Positions 10,783-16,401 of a stretch of 16,401 nt of DNA are shown piece by piece (the stretch's first letter is position 1; every line of letters starts with the position of its first letter). Below the pieces are notes generated by a model. That model was not told where the DNA came from. It ran no database searches and saw nothing but the letters and a program-made list of their open reading frames with translations. The position numbers were made by a program, and so were the translations under genes. The DNA is from an uncultured beta proteobacterium (GTDB lineage Bacteria; Pseudomonadota; Gammaproteobacteria; Burkholderiales; Burkholderiaceae_C). The DNA lies in assembly GCA_903944555.1 (NCBI GenBank), contig CAJASG010000410.1:1-16401 (forward strand). Direction: 5' to 3'.

Positions 10783-10803
10783 GCCCGCTTGTGTCAGGCG
10801 GGC
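10783..10803. terminator. Inverted repeat at the end of the PEP-CTERM gene
   Basis: GCCCGC (10783-10788) and GCGGGC (10798-10803) flank a 9-nt loop that contains the PEP-CTERM stop codon. On the minus strand no T run follows; on the plus strand only TTT follows. It could be a weak terminator between this gene and the 91-residue gene. Confidence 0.3.
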
Positions 10804-11564
10804 TTTGCGACTTTGGAGCGCCGCACTACCGTCATGCCGACCAGCGCAAGCCCCATCAATGCCAAGGAGCCGGGCTCGGGCACGTTCTCCACATCACTGC
10901 GAAGCGCCACGTTGGCCAGCAAATAGGCAGAGTTACTGCCGTTCTCTGCGGTCCAGAACGAGGTAAACGGATTGCTGCCACTGGGGTCCAGCGAGAAGCC
11001 AATCACGTTCAGCGTGTAAGTATCCAGACCGACCAGGAAATCCTCCGAGGTGGAGGACCAGTTGGCAATCACTCGGTCCGCGCAACCATTGATATTCACA
11101 CCAATGCCCACCACGCCACCGTCCGCGCAGGGGTTGTCAGCGTTCGGGGTTTCCCAATGGTCAAAGTCATAGCTGAACGATTTATTTACCACCGGATTGC
11201 CGTTGACACCCACGTCCGCGGTGATTCTGAGCTTAATGTCCGTGATGCTGGTGCCCGCATTGATTGGAAAGTTCTGGTGCGTGAAGGTACCCAACACCAA
11301 GCTGGGCGATGGCGACGGTGGCACGGTGAAGCTAAGCGGCTGCGCAGCAATGCTGAAGTCGTAGCCGCTTTGCTGCGCTCCAACACCCCAGTGGGCATGG
11401 GCCGTGGTGGTAGACGGGTTGTTGACATACGTCACATTGCTGGCGGGCACCGCGTCGTACCACTCGGCGGTGATATTTGACAGGGACACTGCGGATGCCT
11501 GCGCGAAACCGGAGGTGAACACCGCGATCGTCGCAGCCACGATTGACCATTTATGCATTTTCAT
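10794..11564 (-). CDS. THxN family PEP-CTERM exported protein
   Basis: This is a 256-residue exported surface protein. It has a signal peptide (about 1-24, cut after AQASA), and a C-terminal sorting signal with VPEPGS at 228-233, a hydrophobic helix and RRSK, the substrate form for exosortase/archaeosortase-type processing linked to exopolysaccharide. THQN at 95-98 in GTFTHQNFPIN gives the name of the THxN subfamily. The middle is Thr/Ser/Asn-rich beta structure with cysteines at 146 and 161. AGGAG stands 9 bases before the ATG at 11564; an ATG two codons later is possible. No exosortase gene is in the window, so processing must be done from elsewhere. Transcription may be sigma-54 dependent. 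Confidence 0.9.
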   Translation of the reverse strand: MKMHKWSIVAATIAVFTSGFAQASAVSLSNITAEWYDAVPASNVTYVNNPSTTTAHAHWGVGAQQSGYDFSIAAQPLSFTVPPSPSPSLVLGTFTHQNFPINAGTSITDIKLRITADVGVNGNPVVNKSFSYDFDHWETPNADNPCADGGVVGIGVNINGCADRVIANWSSTSEDFLVGLDTYTLNVIGFSLDPSGSNPFTSFWTAENGSNSAYLLANVALRSDVENVPEPGSLALMGLALVGMTVVRRSKVAKPA

Positions 11565-11941
11565 GTTGCCTAGCTCCTATAACTATTGAACCAGTCCCGC
11601 ATGTGGCGGGTGCCCGATGGCAACAACAGTCCAATCAACCTCTCATCGAACCACCAAAACGCCATCATGGGGATGAAATAGCAGGAAGCAGGCCAGCAAT
11701 GGCCTGGTACGGCAGGTCCCGGTAATTTTCAGGCCGTCAATGACCCGCGTGTTGTGCTTGTGTCGGCATCGGATTTCTCTCGACCTGAGAGTGAAAACAC
11801 CCGGTTTTAGGATGGTTTCCCGCCCCCTGTTGACGGGCAAAATGGAGGCTTTTAGAACACGCAATTTTTGCTGTGGCGAAGGGGTAGGTCCTGCCATTCG
11901 CCCCGGCGAAGCGACTGCGTGTCAAATTTCCCGACAGCAAA
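11565..11941. other. 377-bp intergenic region between the NTF2-like gene and the PEP-CTERM gene
   Basis: I see no convincing gene here. It holds the PEP-CTERM leader with its AGGAG (11574-11578 on the minus strand), a leader hairpin CCCGC/GCGGG at 11596-11610, and a candidate sigma-54 promoter at 11680-11695. Two GC-rich hairpins lie at 11876-11901 (imperfect) and around 11897-11910 (TTCGCC facing GGCGAA), which could end transcription of the large minus-strand operon. A plus-strand open frame at 11740-12045 has no coding character. Confidence 0.6.
11680..11695 (-). promoter_or_regulatory. Candidate sigma-54 promoter for the PEP-CTERM gene
   Basis: The minus strand reads TGGCCTGCTTCCTGCT. 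It has the obligatory GG and GC ten bases apart and matches TGGCACG-N4-TTGCW at most defined positions. The predicted start, about 11669, gives a leader of about 105 nt. PEP-CTERM genes in several betaproteobacteria are controlled by RpoN with the PrsK/PrsR pair, which makes the assignment sensible. No activator site was identified. Confidence 0.4.
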
Positions 11942-12370
11942 TCAGGAATTCGCCCGCGCTTTCAACCAGCGCATCAGACCACCCACCAGGGGCAATTTTT
12001 CGTACAACTCTTCGGCGGCGTCCCAGTAGTCACGGTGCAGCGTGATGCGGCCCGCTTCATCCAGCACCAAGTGCGAGCCACCCAGAATGCACTGCTCTTG
12101 TCCCTGCTTGAAGCGTTGGAAATAGAAGCGGAACTCCCAGGTCAAGAAACACTGGCCTCCCTGCACAATGCGCTCGGTAATGATGAAGCGGGGTTGGTTC
12201 AGGCTCACAAACATGTGGCGAAAAATGCGCTGAATCTCGGGCAAACCGCGCACGTCATTGAACGGGTCTTTGAAGCGCGCCTGCGGTGCATAGACCTCGT
12301 CCAACGCCTCCACACTGGCCGGTGTGAGGGTTTGAAATACTTCAACAATACGGTCAACAGCGTGGTTCAT
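11942..12370 (-). CDS. NTF2-like (SnoaL-type) protein of the CFA/DUF3833 cluster
   Basis: This is a 142-residue soluble protein with the cone-shaped NTF2/SnoaL fold. Marks are the LDEVYAPQARFKDPFNDVRG stretch (23-42), RIFRHMF, FLTWEFRFYF, GGSHLVLDEAGRI and the closing HRDYWDAAEELYEKLPLVGG. The D35-P36 and H112-R113-D114-Y115-W116-D117 groups line the pocket in homologues, which fits binding or isomerising a small hydrophobic ligand, but no reaction is known. I chose the ATG at 12370; the frame extending to 12469 would run into the SDR gene. It is the last gene of the operon, 23 bases after the SDR gene. This protein type recurs in the RpoE/ChrR-linked clusters. Confidence 0.88.
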   Translation of the reverse strand: MNHAVDRIVEVFQTLTPASVEALDEVYAPQARFKDPFNDVRGLPEIQRIFRHMFVSLNQPRFIITERIVQGGQCFLTWEFRFYFQRFKQGQEQCILGGSHLVLDEAGRITLHRDYWDAAEELYEKLPLVGGLMRWLKARANS

Positions 12371-12393
12371 GGGGACTCTCGGTTCAAGAAAAA

Positions 12394-13185
12394 TTAGCCG
12401 GGGTTCAGGCGACGGGTGGCGGCAAAAAATGCCGGATAGGGCAGCAGCTGCAGCGCCTTCATCCACCAAGTAAAGCGCCTGGGAAAGTGCATCTCAAACG
12501 CGCCGCGCGACCAGCCCCGCAGGATTTCCTGCGCAGCCTGCTCCGGGCTGATCAAGGCTGGCATTTTGAACTGGTTTTGTGCTGTGAGCGGGGTGTCGAC
12601 AAAGCCGGGGTTGATCAGTGACACGCCCACGCCATGGCGGTGCAGATCCAGATAGAGCGTCTCTGCCAGGTTGATGAGCGCGGCTTTGGTCGGACCATAG
12701 GCCAGGCTGTTGGGCAGGCCCCGGTAGCCCGCCACGCTGCCCATCAGGCTGATGTGGCCGCGCTGGCTGCTGTGCGGGTCCAGCGGCTGGCGCAACAGGA
12801 TGGGTAGCACCGCATCCAGCAAGTGCAGCGCGCCCAGGTAGTTGATCTGGTTGTGGCGCAGCAGGTCGGACAGGTCGATATCGGTTGCCTGCATGGCATG
12901 GTAGTGCCCGGCGCAAAACACCACGCAGTCCAACGCGCCTTGGTCCGCGAGAGCAAGCGCAGCAGCTTGCACCGCCCGTGCATCGGTCACGTCCAGGGGG
13001 AGCGCTTGCGCGCCGGGGTGGGCATCGACAAAGGCGTTGAGCGCGTCTACGCCCCGCGCCGACACGATCACTTTGGCACCCTGTGCGTGCAGCGCCGATG
13101 CGCTGGCACGGCCAATGCCGGTGGAGGCGCCTACCAGCCAAACGGTGCGGCCGCGCCAATCGGCCATGCGGGGGTTTAGAGCCAT
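12394..13185 (-). CDS. Short-chain dehydrogenase/reductase of the CFA/DUF3833 cluster
   Basis: This is a 263-residue NAD(P)-dependent oxidoreductase of the classical SDR type. GASTGIG at 19-25 is the cofactor loop, CAG at 91-93 replaces the usual NAG, S150, Y163 and K167 (YGPTK) form the catalytic set, and INPGFVDTPLT (191-201) follows. The C-terminal 35 residues (MHFPRRFTWWMKALQLLPYPAFF) are hydrophobic and may contact the membrane, as expected for a lipid substrate. The substrate is unknown. AGAGGT stands well ahead of the ATG at 13185, with two bases to the DUF3833 stop; a second ATG at codon 7 is possible. Confidence 0.92.
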   Translation of the reverse strand: MALNPRMADWRGRTVWLVGASTGIGRASASALHAQGAKVIVSARGVDALNAFVDAHPGAQALPLDVTDARAVQAAALALADQGALDCVVFCAGHYHAMQATDIDLSDLLRHNQINYLGALHLLDAVLPILLRQPLDPHSSQRGHISLMGSVAGYRGLPNSLAYGPTKAALINLAETLYLDLHRHGVGVSLINPGFVDTPLTAQNQFKMPALISPEQAAQEILRGWSRGAFEMHFPRRFTWWMKALQLLPYPAFFAATRRLNPG

Positions 13186-13187
13186 AT

Positions 13188-13751
13188 TTACCTCTTATAA
13201 AAAGACAAGGTCACTTCACCCAAGCCCACGCCCCACTTGCGCATGGCGGCTTTGTTGAGCATGACTTTGTCGTCCATCAGGTACATCCAGTCGTCAAACT
13301 GCACCTCAATCACGCGGCCATCTACCGGCAGGGCCAGGGTGTAGGCCCAGTTAAACGCGTTGCCGCTTTGCTGACCCTCAGCCATGCCCACCACATCGTC
13401 GGCTTGGCCGGTGTAGCGGCCATTGGCGTGGCGCGTCAGGCGCCAGATGCGGCGCTGGGTGGTGCCGTCGGAATAGGTGAAGGCTTCATCCAGCACGCCT
13501 TGGTCACCCTTCCAGGTGCATTCCATCACCACCGTGAAGCGCTTCACCACCTTGCCCGAGCGGTCGGTAAAGATGCCGTGGGCGTCCAGCGTGCCGTTGA
13601 AGTACTCGCGCAGCTCCAGCACCGGGGTCTCTTTGGCGTAGTCCTGCACCTGTGGCGTGCTGCAGCCGCCGAGCAGTGCAGCCGACACGCACAGCGCCAG
13701 CACACTGCGCAGTGCGCGGGACTTGGAATGGGACATGGGTTGATGTTTCAT
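13188..13751 (-). CDS. DUF3833 family lipoprotein
   Basis: This is a 187-residue lipoprotein. The signal sequence runs to the lipobox LLGGC, putting the lipidated cysteine at 30; with Ser31 next to it, sorting to the outer membrane is likely. The mature domain carries DUF3833 marks: LELREYFNGTLDAHGIFTDR, the WRLT strand, GQADDVVG and VQFDDWMYLMDD, ending TLSFYKR. Such a single beta-rich domain could bind a lipid, but no activity is known. The ATG at 13751 overlaps the stop of the transporter gene (ATGA); a second ATG at codon 6 is equally reasonable, and neither has a good Shine-Dalgarno. In my knowledge DUF3833 nearly always travels with CFA-like and SDR genes, which supports a joint task. 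Confidence 0.9.
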   Translation of the reverse strand: MKHQPMSHSKSRALRSVLALCVSAALLGGCSTPQVQDYAKETPVLELREYFNGTLDAHGIFTDRSGKVVKRFTVVMECTWKGDQGVLDEAFTYSDGTTQRRIWRLTRHANGRYTGQADDVVGMAEGQQSGNAFNWAYTLALPVDGRVIEVQFDDWMYLMDDKVMLNKAAMRKWGVGLGEVTLSFYKR

Positions 13752-15091
13752 GGGGTTGCGGTCCGATCAAAGGGGTGAATCAGCAAGAAATGCAACGCAC
13801 CGGCGGCCAGGGCCTTGAGCGCACAGGGCAGCAGGCAATAGGCCACGGTCAGCATTTGCAGGGCCTGCGCGTCACGCGCGCCGGGTGCATAACCCAGCCA
13901 GCCCAACAAGGGCAATGCCAGCCCGGCGGCCAGCGCTAGGTTGAGCTTGGTGGCAAAGTTCCACCAACCAAAATACGCGCCCTCAGCGCGGCCCTGCTCC
14001 CCGGCATCGGCAATGAGCCCGGCCAACAAGGCCCCTGGCAGGGCCAGATCACTGCCGAGCGCCGCACCCGACAGCGCGCACACCAACAAAAACAGGGCCT
14101 CATCCCCCACGCCCAGCAGGGTGGCACCCATGAACGCCGCGATGGACAGCAGCATGCCGGCACGCCAGCTGCGCTCCAGACCCACCACGCGCACCAGCCG
14201 CAACCATAAAGGCATGGAGAGCGCGCCACACAAAAAGTAGACCCCTAGGGCAGCAGTCTGTGTGGCAACACCAGCTTGCAAACGGTCCTGCACAAAAAAC
14301 AGCACCAGCGTCGCGGGAATGGCGCTGGCAATGCCATTGAGTGAAAACACCAGCAACAACCGTCGAAACGCCGGGTTACGCCAGGGCAACCACACATCAG
14401 AATCCACGCGAACAGGCACCGCGCCCGCATGCTGCACCAGCGCGGTAGCGGGCACTGTTGCGGTTGCAACGGCGGGCCGTGGGGCACGCGTCCACGCCCA
14501 CCAGCCCAGCACCAAACTCGCGCACAAAAGGGCCAGCATGGCAGGTATGCCCGCCAAGGTGGGGGTAACGGCGGCCAGCAGCACACCGACCAGCCCCAGC
14601 CCTTCGCGCCACGCCACCACCCGGCTGCGGTACAGCGCGTCGCCGCCCAGCATGGCGCCCCAGGACTGGTGGGCAATCGCCAAGGCGCTGTAGGCAGCGT
14701 AGGTCACCAGCAGGCAAGCCGCAGCCCACCACAGCAGTGCATCCGGCGTTCTCACCGGCGGCAAAAAAAGACCGGAAAAGCCCAGGCCCAGCACCAGCGC
14801 CGCCACCGCCGCCCAGGCCAGGACGGCGCGCAGTGAGCGCCGGTACAGGCGGTCGCACACCCGTCCCAGCAGAGGATCAATCAGCGCGTCCAACAAACGC
14901 GCGCCCAGCAGTACCGCACCCAGCGCGGCCAAGGACACGCCCCACTCACGCGCATACAAATTGGGCATCAGCACGTACAGCGGTAGCGCGCAAAAGGCCA
15001 GTGGCAGACCCAACAGGCCGTAGCGCAGGCCATCGCCCACGCTCCAACCTCGCGCGGTTGGTTCCAACGCGTGCGCTGCGTGGGTGTTCAT
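13748..15091 (-). CDS. MFS_2/GPH-like membrane transporter of the CFA/DUF3833 cluster
   Basis: This is a 447-residue inner-membrane protein with about 12 hydrophobic segments. LLDALIDPLLGRVCDR (about 57-72) is the motif of the GPH/MFS_2 branch, which includes sugar:cation symporters and lipid transporters such as the lysophospholipid carriers; the substrate here is unknown and a lipid is a guess from context. I chose the ATG at 15091, which overlaps the stop of the chalcone-isomerase-like gene by ATGA; the open frame to 15178 would run back through that gene. The stop overlaps the DUF3833 start in the same way. The sequence is very Ala/Leu-rich, so helix borders are uncertain. Confidence 0.85.
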   Translation of the reverse strand: MNTHAAHALEPTARGWSVGDGLRYGLLGLPLAFCALPLYVLMPNLYAREWGVSLAALGAVLLGARLLDALIDPLLGRVCDRLYRRSLRAVLAWAAVAALVLGLGFSGLFLPPVRTPDALLWWAAACLLVTYAAYSALAIAHQSWGAMLGGDALYRSRVVAWREGLGLVGVLLAAVTPTLAGIPAMLALLCASLVLGWWAWTRAPRPAVATATVPATALVQHAGAVPVRVDSDVWLPWRNPAFRRLLLVFSLNGIASAIPATLVLFFVQDRLQAGVATQTAALGVYFLCGALSMPLWLRLVRVVGLERSWRAGMLLSIAAFMGATLLGVGDEALFLLVCALSGAALGSDLALPGALLAGLIADAGEQGRAEGAYFGWWNFATKLNLALAAGLALPLLGWLGYAPGARDAQALQMLTVAYCLLPCALKALAAGALHFLLIHPFDRTATP

Positions 15092-15660
15092 GGCGCAGTG
15101 CCTGCGGGAGACTGGGCTTGCGCCTGCGCCAACAGCGCCCGGCGCAGTTGCGGCTCTGAGGTTTGGGGACTGAGCCATATGCCAAAGAATTGCTTGGCAA
15201 AGGCGGGGTCGCGCACCTCACCCAGCACGCGGCCGTTGCTCCAAAATACGGCGCCGGTGCCGGGCTGGTGCACACCGGTGATCTGGTCGCCAGCCTTGAC
15301 ATCCGGAAACAAGGCGCGCATTTGGCTCTCCCAATCGGCTTCCTGCGCCGCAGTGAGGGGCGCCTGGCGGCGCATCTCGGCAATCGAACGCCGGGCAATG
15401 TCTGCACCCTTGAAATCACGCAGGTAGGACAGCTCCAGCGCAAAGCGGCTTTGTTCGTAGCGGCTTTGCGCAAAGCCTGGTGCCACCCACAGAGTGGCTT
15501 GGTACACGTCAAAACCCCACACCGTCATCTTGGCCTGCCCGGATAGGGTGGCTGCGGGCACGGTGGGGCGCAGCTCCTGCGGCAGCGGTTGGGCGTTAGT
15601 TTTTATGCCAAATAGGGCTGTAACCACCGCCAATACTGCGCAAGCAGCTATTTTTTTCAT
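15088..15660 (-). CDS. Chalcone-isomerase-like exported protein
   Basis: This is a 190-residue protein with a signal peptide (about 1-23, cut after TNA) and a chalcone-isomerase-like domain (Chalcone_3 type). Marks are VWGFDVYQATLWV (47-59), FALELSYLRDFKGADIA (73-89), RSIAEMRR and FFGIWLSPQTSEPQLRRALL (158-177). Bacterial members are not flavonoid enzymes as far as known; the plant relatives without activity bind fatty acids, so a periplasmic lipid-binding role fits the cluster. The ATG at 15660 overlaps the stop of the CFA-type gene by ATGA. A low-complexity Gln/Ala tail (177-190) is probably disordered. Confidence 0.88.
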   Translation of the reverse strand: MKKIAACAVLAVVTALFGIKTNAQPLPQELRPTVPAATLSGQAKMTVWGFDVYQATLWVAPGFAQSRYEQSRFALELSYLRDFKGADIARRSIAEMRRQAPLTAAQEADWESQMRALFPDVKAGDQITGVHQPGTGAVFWSNGRVLGEVRDPAFAKQFFGIWLSPQTSEPQLRRALLAQAQAQSPAGTAP

Positions 15661-16400
15661 AGCGATTTTGCCACTGGTTTTTGCAGTGTGTACTGCACCA
15701 GGCTGATATCGCCAGTGTCAAATGCGGCTTCGCAATAGGCCAGATAGAACTCCCAGATGCGCATAAAGCGTTCGTCAAAGCCCAGCGCGGCCACCTCGGC
15801 TTTGCGCGCCACAAAGGCGTCGCGCCAGCGCCGCAGCGTTTCGGCGTAGTCGGCACCAAACGCAAACGTGTCCACCACCTCCAACCCGGCGGCTTCGGCC
15901 TCCCGGCGGAACTCGCGCGGGCAGGGCAGGCAACCGCCAGGAAAGATGTACTGCTGGATGAAATCAGTGGACGTGATGTAACGGTCAAACAGCGCATCGT
16001 CAATCACGATGCTCTGCACACAGGCGCGCCCACCGGGTTTGAGCAAGCGGCTGACCGTTTGGAAGTACTGCGGCCAGTAGGCGCGACCCACAGCCTCGAC
16101 CATCTCAATAGAGCAAATCGCGTCAAACGGGGCGTCGGTGATGTCGCGGTAGTCCTGCAGGCGCAAATCCGCAGTGGCGTTGGCGCCGGTGGCCACACCC
16201 AGGCGCTGCATGCGCGCGTTGGCATAGTCCAACTGCTCGGTGCTCAAGGTCACCCCGACTACCGAGGCCCCCCGGTGCAACGTGGCCTGCTCGGCCAGCG
16301 CCCCCCAGCCGCAGCCGATCTCCAGCACCCGGTCACCCGGCTTCACATGGGCCATATCCGATGCGCGGCGCACCTTGGCGGTTTGTGCCTGGGGCAAGGG
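15657..16400 (-). CDS. Cyclopropane-fatty-acyl-phospholipid synthase family methyltransferase (3' part)
   Basis: This is the C-terminal part (about 248 codons) of a CFA-family SAM-dependent methyltransferase; whole members have about 380-420 residues. The frame stays open to the right edge, and the TTG at 16397 reads as an internal leucine in LPQAQTAKVRRA, not a start. VLEIGCGWG is the SAM loop. SIEMVEAVGRAYWPQYF, STDFIQQYIFPGGCLP, FGADYAETLRRWRDAF and WEFYLAYCEAAFDTG are typical of the family, which adds a methylene or methyl group to unsaturated acyl chains of membrane phospholipids. Whether this one makes a cyclopropane, a methyl branch or a furan-fatty-acid precursor cannot be told. It heads the visible part of the operon. 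Confidence 0.93.
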   Translation of the reverse strand, partial: PLPQAQTAKVRRASDMAHVKPGDRVLEIGCGWGALAEQATLHRGASVVGVTLSTEQLDYANARMQRLGVATGANATADLRLQDYRDITDAPFDAICSIEMVEAVGRAYWPQYFQTVSRLLKPGGRACVQSIVIDDALFDRYITSTDFIQQYIFPGGCLPCPREFRREAEAAGLEVVDTFAFGADYAETLRRWRDAFVARKAEVAALGFDERFMRIWEFYLAYCEAAFDTGDISLVQYTLQKPVAKSL

Positions 16401-16401
16401 G

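Follow-up and report, generated by a model that had tools for sequence, protein, structure and literature searches.

The gene cluster at one end of the contig analysed here raises the question of which lipid it makes, and which of its genes take part in making it. The window, by which we mean the whole stretch of 16,401 nucleotides, is contig C410 (CAJASG010000410.1) of an uncultured beta proteobacterium whose genome (4.07 Mb in 792 contigs) is 91% complete. Six genes lie on the minus strand between positions 11942 and 16401, and a first-pass annotation had read them as a single operon for lipid modification whose product was not known. Taken together with two genes found upstream, the set very probably constitutes a furan-fatty-acid operon, in which a core of ufaD, ufaO and ufaM is followed by five accessory genes that would act after synthesis. 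The core is a known pathway, in a lineage for which no description was found. A cluster labelled 'product unknown' would thereby become a testable furan-fatty-acid operon in a large family, with DUF1365, the family of UfaO, present in 75 of 100 family genomes sampled at one per genus.

The six genes were defined by open reading frame coordinates and Pfam matches, all on the minus strand. In the direction of transcription they comprise the 3' part of a ufaM-type CMAS methyltransferase gene (15657–16401; E-value 2.8e-65, with the Ala240/Gln266 signature and clade described below) and genes for a chalcone-isomerase-like protein (Chalcone_3, 15088–15660; 1e-14), an MFS_2 permease of the GPH/MelB type (PF13347, 13748–15091; 3e-43), a DUF3833 lipoprotein (PF12915, 13188–13751; 5.4e-72), a short-chain dehydrogenase/reductase (SDR) that is the counterpart of RSP1087 by family (PF00106, adh_short, 12394–13185; 9.1e-34) and, as the final gene in the set, a SnoaL_2/NTF2-like protein (PF12680, 11942–12370; 2.4e-12). 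Three ATGA overlaps connect the CMAS and chalcone-like genes (15657–15660), the chalcone-like and MFS_2 genes (15088–15091) and the MFS_2 and DUF3833 genes (13748–13751), and the remaining intergenic gaps are 2 and 23 bases. ATG starts were confirmed in the sequence for MFS_2 (15091, within its ATGA overlap) and for SnoaL (12370). The coordinates and Pfam matches bear out the genes, families, strand, overlaps and gaps given by the first-pass annotation; lipid modification is likewise supported, and the genes probably form a single operon.

The end of the window cuts the methyltransferase gene, and its 5' part is located on contig C626 (locus L009, 3847–4475). The last 96 bases of the window correspond to the end of C626 with one mismatch, and the genome search listed no second place; the joined methyltransferase has 425 amino acids. 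Along the direction of transcription, C626 carries genes for a GDT1-type protein, a TetR regulator (encoded on the opposite strand), a 442-residue flavin amine oxidase and a 284-residue DUF1365 protein (4-base overlap), followed by the 5' half of the methyltransferase gene. The first-pass annotation had predicted an FAD amine oxidase and DUF1365 as neighbours, and both are present on this overlapping contig, such that C626 and the window encode a UfaD-type FAD amine oxidase, a DUF1365 UfaO and a CMAS UfaM together. The join, which we infer from the overlap, agrees with the gene order in relatives, and the full operon would then read (TetR divergent) ufaD-ufaO-ufaM-chalcone-like-MFS_2-DUF3833-SDR-SnoaL. 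Named homologues come from Polaromonas, Rhodoferax and other Comamonadaceae or Burkholderiales.

The chemistry of the core enzymes has been published for Rhodobacter sphaeroides and Rhodopseudomonas palustris. UfaM adds a methyl group to phospholipid-bound cis-vaccenate, its product is desaturated by UfaD (RSP1091), and UfaO (RSP1090, DUF1365) forms the furan ring with oxygen taken from O2 (PMC7380195). The three genes are sufficient in R. sphaeroides for methyl-furan fatty acids (PMC7380195), and Halomonas ufaM expressed in Escherichia coli yields 11-methyl-octadecenoate (PMC12089945). Since this chemistry is published, the product of the core is likely a known one, and the first-pass view of the product is outdated in this respect (PMC7380195). 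On the basis of homology, gene order and the active-site signature, UfaM of the window organism would methylate the cis-vaccenoyl chain of a membrane phospholipid to give an 11-methyl-12-trans-alkene, UfaD would desaturate the methyl alkene to a conjugated diene, and UfaO would close the furan ring by inserting oxygen derived from O2. Furan fatty acids are thought to be membrane lipids that protect from damage by light and oxygen. Singlet oxygen destroys them (PMC6852236), their oxidation yields dioxoenes (PMC12595405), and membrane-lipid peroxidation has been proposed as a second messenger for ChrR turnover (PMC6852236).

The closest sequence matches of the CMAS protein in the PDB are cyclopropane synthases, and these matches, like the Pfam assignment, would suit an ordinary Cfa, with the operon making a cyclopropane or a plain methyl-branched fatty acid. 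The active site renders this highly improbable. In the cyclopropane synthase of E. coli, the catalytic bicarbonate is held by Glu239, His266 and Tyr317 (PMC11387697). At positions 139, 239, 240, 266, 268 and 317, the residues are Cys, Glu, His, His, Ile and Tyr in all three solved cyclopropane synthases and in 11 paralogues taken from the same genomes. We take Cys139 and Ile268 to be further bicarbonate ligands of the E. coli enzyme. In the CMAS enzymes of ufaD/ufaO clusters, however, His240 is replaced by Ala and His266 by Gln in 61 of 61 loci (our own, 40 from the family and 20 from the phylum). The same pair is found in two unlinked CMAS enzymes from Rhodobacteraceae-like genomes. Glu239, Ile268 and Tyr317 are retained in all 63 Ala/Gln sequences, and position 139 is occupied by Ser in 52 of them, by Ala in 7, by Gly in one and by Cys in three. 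In the window enzyme, Glu and Tyr are kept and Gln stands in place of His266, leaving the set of cyclopropane-synthase ligands incomplete.

A separate phylogenetic position and the adjacency to ufaD and ufaO also argue against an ordinary Cfa. The Ala/Gln sequences (63 rows, 61 from clusters and two unlinked) form one clade with support 100/100, recovered in 98% of 200 bootstrap trees, in an 87-row tree built without bench-tested UfaM; the Ala/Gln label itself defines the group in this tree, and the 61 cluster enzymes provide the independent count. The alignment left out duplicates and matches of fewer than 220 positions, the tree left out the L001 fragment, and the tree program flagged odd composition in several rows. 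A third CMAS group of 10 rows consists mostly of second CMAS genes from another cluster type. As a side observation, that second type (L015–L018 and L060–L064) has two CMAS proteins, with RpoE and/or ChrR in most, and its second CMAS belongs to the third group, where nine of ten rows keep His266 with Phe for Ile268 (L126 is the odd one) and seven of ten have Ser for Cys139.

A further scan, nearly all Rhodobacteraceae by title, gave Ala and Gln in 80 of 80 loci kept among at least 569 matches listed (78 by pattern, two by eye), in a comparison that did not include UfaM of R. sphaeroides or R. palustris. A photolyase gene lies upstream in all four of the surroundings read among these 80 loci (one by Pfam, three by eye); RSP2143-RSP2144 has the same photolyase-upstream arrangement, and RSP2144 is listed as cfaS (PMC5507510). 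In the absence of a bicarbonate base next to the methyl carbon, the cation would instead shed a proton of the chain, leading to a methyl alkene rather than a ring. The signature offers a structural reason why the same start of a reaction may yield one product and not the other, and a rule of Ala240/Gln266 versus His/His should separate furan-fatty-acid methylases from cyclopropane synthases, which are confused in annotation. It is likely to be new, as no mention of it was met in the available parts of the literature on bicarbonate, cyclopropane synthase and UfaM.

Conservation of gene order extends the case from the core to the whole set. From the family, 40 of 76 DUF1365 places were fetched, mostly the best-scoring on long contigs and from other genera (L014 was dropped as part of L015). 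The order ufaD-ufaO-ufaM-Chal-MFS_2-DUF3833-SDR-SnoaL is found in 27 of these 40 neighbourhoods, and for this reason the cluster is taken to be more than chance. L029 has all eight genes by tblastn but shows a detection gap in the profile-based count, and seven other neighbourhoods are without one to three of the eight. MFS_2 and DUF3833 occur together in 30 of the 40 loci, eight have neither and two have just one of them, whereas a 2013 paper regarded the RSP1089-1087 set as confined to Rhodobacteraceae (PMC3818230).

In the phylum sample of 249 genomes, 20 of 73 DUF1365 loci were read (L055 and L056 dropped), and the same parts occur in reshuffled order. In the Rhodobacteraceae-like genome of L057, ufaD-ufaO-ufaM-Chal-MFS_2-DUF3833-SDR stands next to RpoE-ChrR, and a SnoaL-SDR pair precedes ufaD in seven of the 20, all of the window's class. 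Away from the core, in 20 of 61 DUF3833 places chosen for that position and including some second copies, a chalcone-like gene stands just upstream of DUF3833 in five (L077, L079, L085, L087 and L095). DUF1365 is present in 51 of the 54 phylum genomes with DUF3833, where 15.8 would be expected (the exceptions are G134, G254 and G326), and in 27 of these 51 the two genes lie no more than 12 kb apart. In the family it is present in 58 of 59 DUF3833 genomes, the exception (G041) being an 80%-complete assembly.

This pattern bears on the idea that the accessory genes are merely co-regulated stress genes without a shared lipid task, clustered because they answer to the same signal of light or oxidative stress. 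Glutathione peroxidase (19 proteins) and B12-type MerR (16 proteins) do recur in the 40 neighbourhoods, and the core is induced by light or singlet oxygen in other bacteria (PMC9758184, PMC6852236). Yet DUF3833 accompanies DUF1365 even in the 24 of 51 genomes where they are unlinked, MFS_2 and DUF3833 are nearly always kept or missing as a pair, and two of the accessory folds are used elsewhere for lipid binding; we regard the stress-gene explanation as improbable. The preferred reading ties DUF3833 and the chalcone-isomerase-like family to furan lipids.

Those two folds were examined by modelling. Sequence searches of the PDB yielded no usable match to DUF3833, to the chalcone-like protein or to DUF1365, and for SnoaL the matches were weak. 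The DUF3833 protein has 187 amino acids, and Cys30, assigned by eye to a lipobox, is invariant in 35 of 35 aligned sequences. Its best AlphaFold model (mean predicted local distance difference test, pLDDT, of 84.0) shows Cys30 followed by ten strands, and its top-ranking structural matches comprise BFA1, DUF3598, nitrobindin, phycobiliprotein-lyase-type and fatty-acid-binding proteins, plus one designed barrel and one outer-membrane barrel. We predict a calycin-type barrel anchored by lipid, its strands forming an antiparallel meander within the 8–10 of that fold. The chalcone-like protein, for which an N-terminal signal peptide was likewise assigned by eye, is modelled (mean pLDDT 84.3) with a chalcone isomerase fold equidistant from the enzymes, CHIL and plant fatty-acid-binding proteins, the fold being common to all three.

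Counterparts of some accessory proteins are found in R. sphaeroides, where RSP1087 resembles SDRs and RSP1088 a lipoprotein (PMC5507510); RSP1088 has 186 amino acids (PMC7380195). The window DUF3833 protein, at 187 amino acids, is near this length. RSP1089 is presumably an MFS symporter, and the gene order in L057, L058 and L066 fits that assignment. Single deletions of RSP1087, RSP1088 and RSP1089, a test that covered neither a chalcone-like nor an NTF2-like protein, left the fatty-acid profile of R. sphaeroides unchanged (PMC7380195). The result weakens the place that the first-pass annotation gave to the SDR and the lipoprotein in a synthetic route. It also makes it unlikely that the accessory genes perform an extra biosynthetic step towards a product beyond the 9M5-type furan fatty acid, for example a reduced, dimethylated or transferred furan lipid, although the order of the eight genes is conserved in 27 of 40 loci, the SDR family consists of enzymes, and the accessory genes are absent from five of 40 loci, so that products may differ between loci. 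Moreover, the dimethyl step in R. palustris uses a separate methylase, FufM (PMC7380195).

Because the R. sphaeroides counterparts of the SDR, the lipoprotein and presumably MFS_2 are dispensable for synthesis, our best guess is that the five accessory genes act after it, in transport, turnover or clean-up of the furan lipid. Two extracytoplasmic proteins, the calycin-type lipoprotein and the chalcone-isomerase-fold protein, would stand outside and the permease between; the SDR and the NTF2-like protein would lie on the cytoplasmic side, and the set may move the furan lipid or handle its oxidation products across the envelope. More speculatively, it could be an after-care module for a sacrificial lipid, in which the DUF3833 barrel, the chalcone-fold protein and the MFS_2 permease collect or move reactive dioxoenes, and the SDR and NTF2-like protein reduce or detoxify them. 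Should this tentative idea be true, a membrane antioxidant would have a dedicated recovery line on the same transcript, and DUF3833, bacterial chalcone-isomerase-like proteins and RSP1087-1089 would gain functions.

Several points weigh against the assignment to a furan-fatty-acid operon and against the role proposed for its accessory genes. The product of this operon is predicted from its genes, and the identity of the core proteins to those of L057 is modest (UfaD 38%, UfaO 36% over 72% of its length, UfaM 42%). The contig join depends on a single 96-base overlap with one mismatch in a 792-contig assembly. As to the methyltransferase, Cys139 is still present in three of the 63 Ala/Gln sequences, and in the 87-row tree the cyclopropane-type rows are split rather than one clade (two changes). 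Five of the 40 family loci have ufaD, ufaO and ufaM with zero accessory genes by profiles, from which it follows that the accessory set is not essential; the co-occurrence counts ignore shared ancestry, and 24 of 51 phylum genomes show no linkage between DUF3833 and DUF1365. The five DUF3833 models span a mean pLDDT of 61–84, both fold models were built on alignments of close relatives, and the post-synthesis role is drawn from deletions in another species.

A dispersed repeat with a consensus of about TTGCTATtaaTTTnATAGCTGCTTGCGCAcaTTCCACGGGGGCTAGAGGCCtATTTG has a copy at 15595–15672 on the minus strand, where it codes for much of the signal peptide of the chalcone-like protein. Its 15-base core (15637–15651, minus strand), which codes for part of the peptide, has 85 exact genomic copies including this one (43 forward and 42 reverse; the backward-pattern control gave 0 and 0). 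Six of the 42 copies read, our own among them, have a near start and at least 80 open codons in that frame, and four of these six (our own, L226, L227 and L250) are signal-peptide-like by eye. The repeat has apparently been recruited as an export signal; a core-like stretch is found at that spot in two of 34 chalcone-like genes of family loci, our own and L023. The same repeat lies in frame near the N-terminus of proteins in L212 and L222 that by eye resemble Sua5/YrdC-type and ThiL-type proteins.

Regulation of the operon differs from that anticipated by the first-pass annotation, which had suggested rpoE-chrR partners. The neighbours of ufaD on C626 are TetR_N and GDT1 genes, with rpoE-chrR absent beside the operon. 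A search of the 91%-complete genome for ChrR gave a best score of 26.9 bits against TIGR02451 (cut-off 124.5), and the sigma-E motif TGATC-N15-19-CGTA was found on neither strand upstream of ufaD. Control of this operon by RpoE-ChrR is unsupported. A small double Cupin_7 (ChrR-cupin) protein on C454 (4343–5008, L209), considered as a ChrR, also scores below ChrR level. Elsewhere the motif faces ufaD in four of the 20 phylum loci (L057, L058, L064 and L066), with RpoE-ChrR near each. In the family it faces rpoE only, in L017–L019, and the other 37 loci lack it on both strands. From shuffles, it would be expected by chance in about 0.36 of 40 loci.

The three genes upstream of ufaD were classified in 40 loci (39 fetched and our own; L029 was dropped, its ufaD not having been called). 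A MerR protein with a B12-binding domain is found in 16, TetR in five including our own, RpoE in three and none of these regulators in 16, two of which have RpoE-ChrR further upstream. One lipid pathway is placed beside at least three kinds of regulator, and the TetR variant is not described in the available parts of the related literature. No MerR-B12 gene stands beside our own ufaD, where the neighbour is TetR; the sole match found in the genome (37% identity) is on another contig, beside SDR and sensor-kinase-like genes by eye, and light control by it as a neighbour was set aside, with action in trans possible. Nor was a TetR operator recognized, the best palindromes between tetR and ufaD being no better than shuffles (fraction as good 0.86 for our own, 0.66 for L032 and 0.40 for L050; L053 is marginal at 0.08). 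In a separate observation, relatives such as L024, L026, L042 and L052 repeatedly have, upstream of ufaD and close to it and to the MerR-B12 gene, a glutathione peroxidase (GSHPx) and a ferritin-like protein that weakly matches FA_desaturase_2/AurF.

At the downstream end, the interval 11400–12500 contains three terminator-like sites, two of them on the minus strand (1.6 +/- 1.2 in shuffles), and Rfam at the gathering threshold gave zero matches in the window. The gene beyond the operon (10794–11564, minus strand) has the look of a PEP-CTERM anchored secreted protein, with a C-terminal PEP motif recognized by eye.

Four known systems invite comparison. In Stenotrophomonas maltophilia, nine genes (smlt2375-2367) include an FAD oxidoreductase, an unnamed cytosolic protein and a CFA-type methyltransferase co-induced under sigma-Ec (PMC11832516; on S. 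maltophilia and Vibrio cholerae, see also PMC5241685). Family loci L015–L018 resemble this type in having RpoE, ChrR and a second CMAS, whereas the window operon differs from it: the S. maltophilia cluster has a second CMAS, a desaturase and a lipocalin, and no MFS_2, DUF3833 and chalcone-like set is named for it (PMC11832516). Pseudomonas mendocina and Pseudomonas putida have a strongly light-induced phrB-SDR-FAD oxidoreductase-ufaM region under class II LitR (PMC9758184). The likeness lies in ufaM, an FAD oxidoreductase and an SDR standing together, and in the MerR-B12 gene upstream of ufaD in 16 of 40 family loci, although in the window genome itself this neighbour is TetR. In R. palustris, RPA2571-2569 (ufaD-ufaO-ufaM) keeps the core trio together, necessary and sufficient for the 9M5 furan fatty acid, and the accessory genes of the window are not described for that locus in the sections consulted (PMC7380195). 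The R. sphaeroides operon RSP1091-1087 and RSP2144 share UfaD, the DUF1365 UfaO, the 186-amino-acid lipoprotein and the SDR with the window operon (PMC7380195, PMC5507510). There ufaM lies elsewhere, whereas the window organism has ufaM inside the operon, chalcone-like and SnoaL genes in addition, and TetR in place of RpoE-ChrR.

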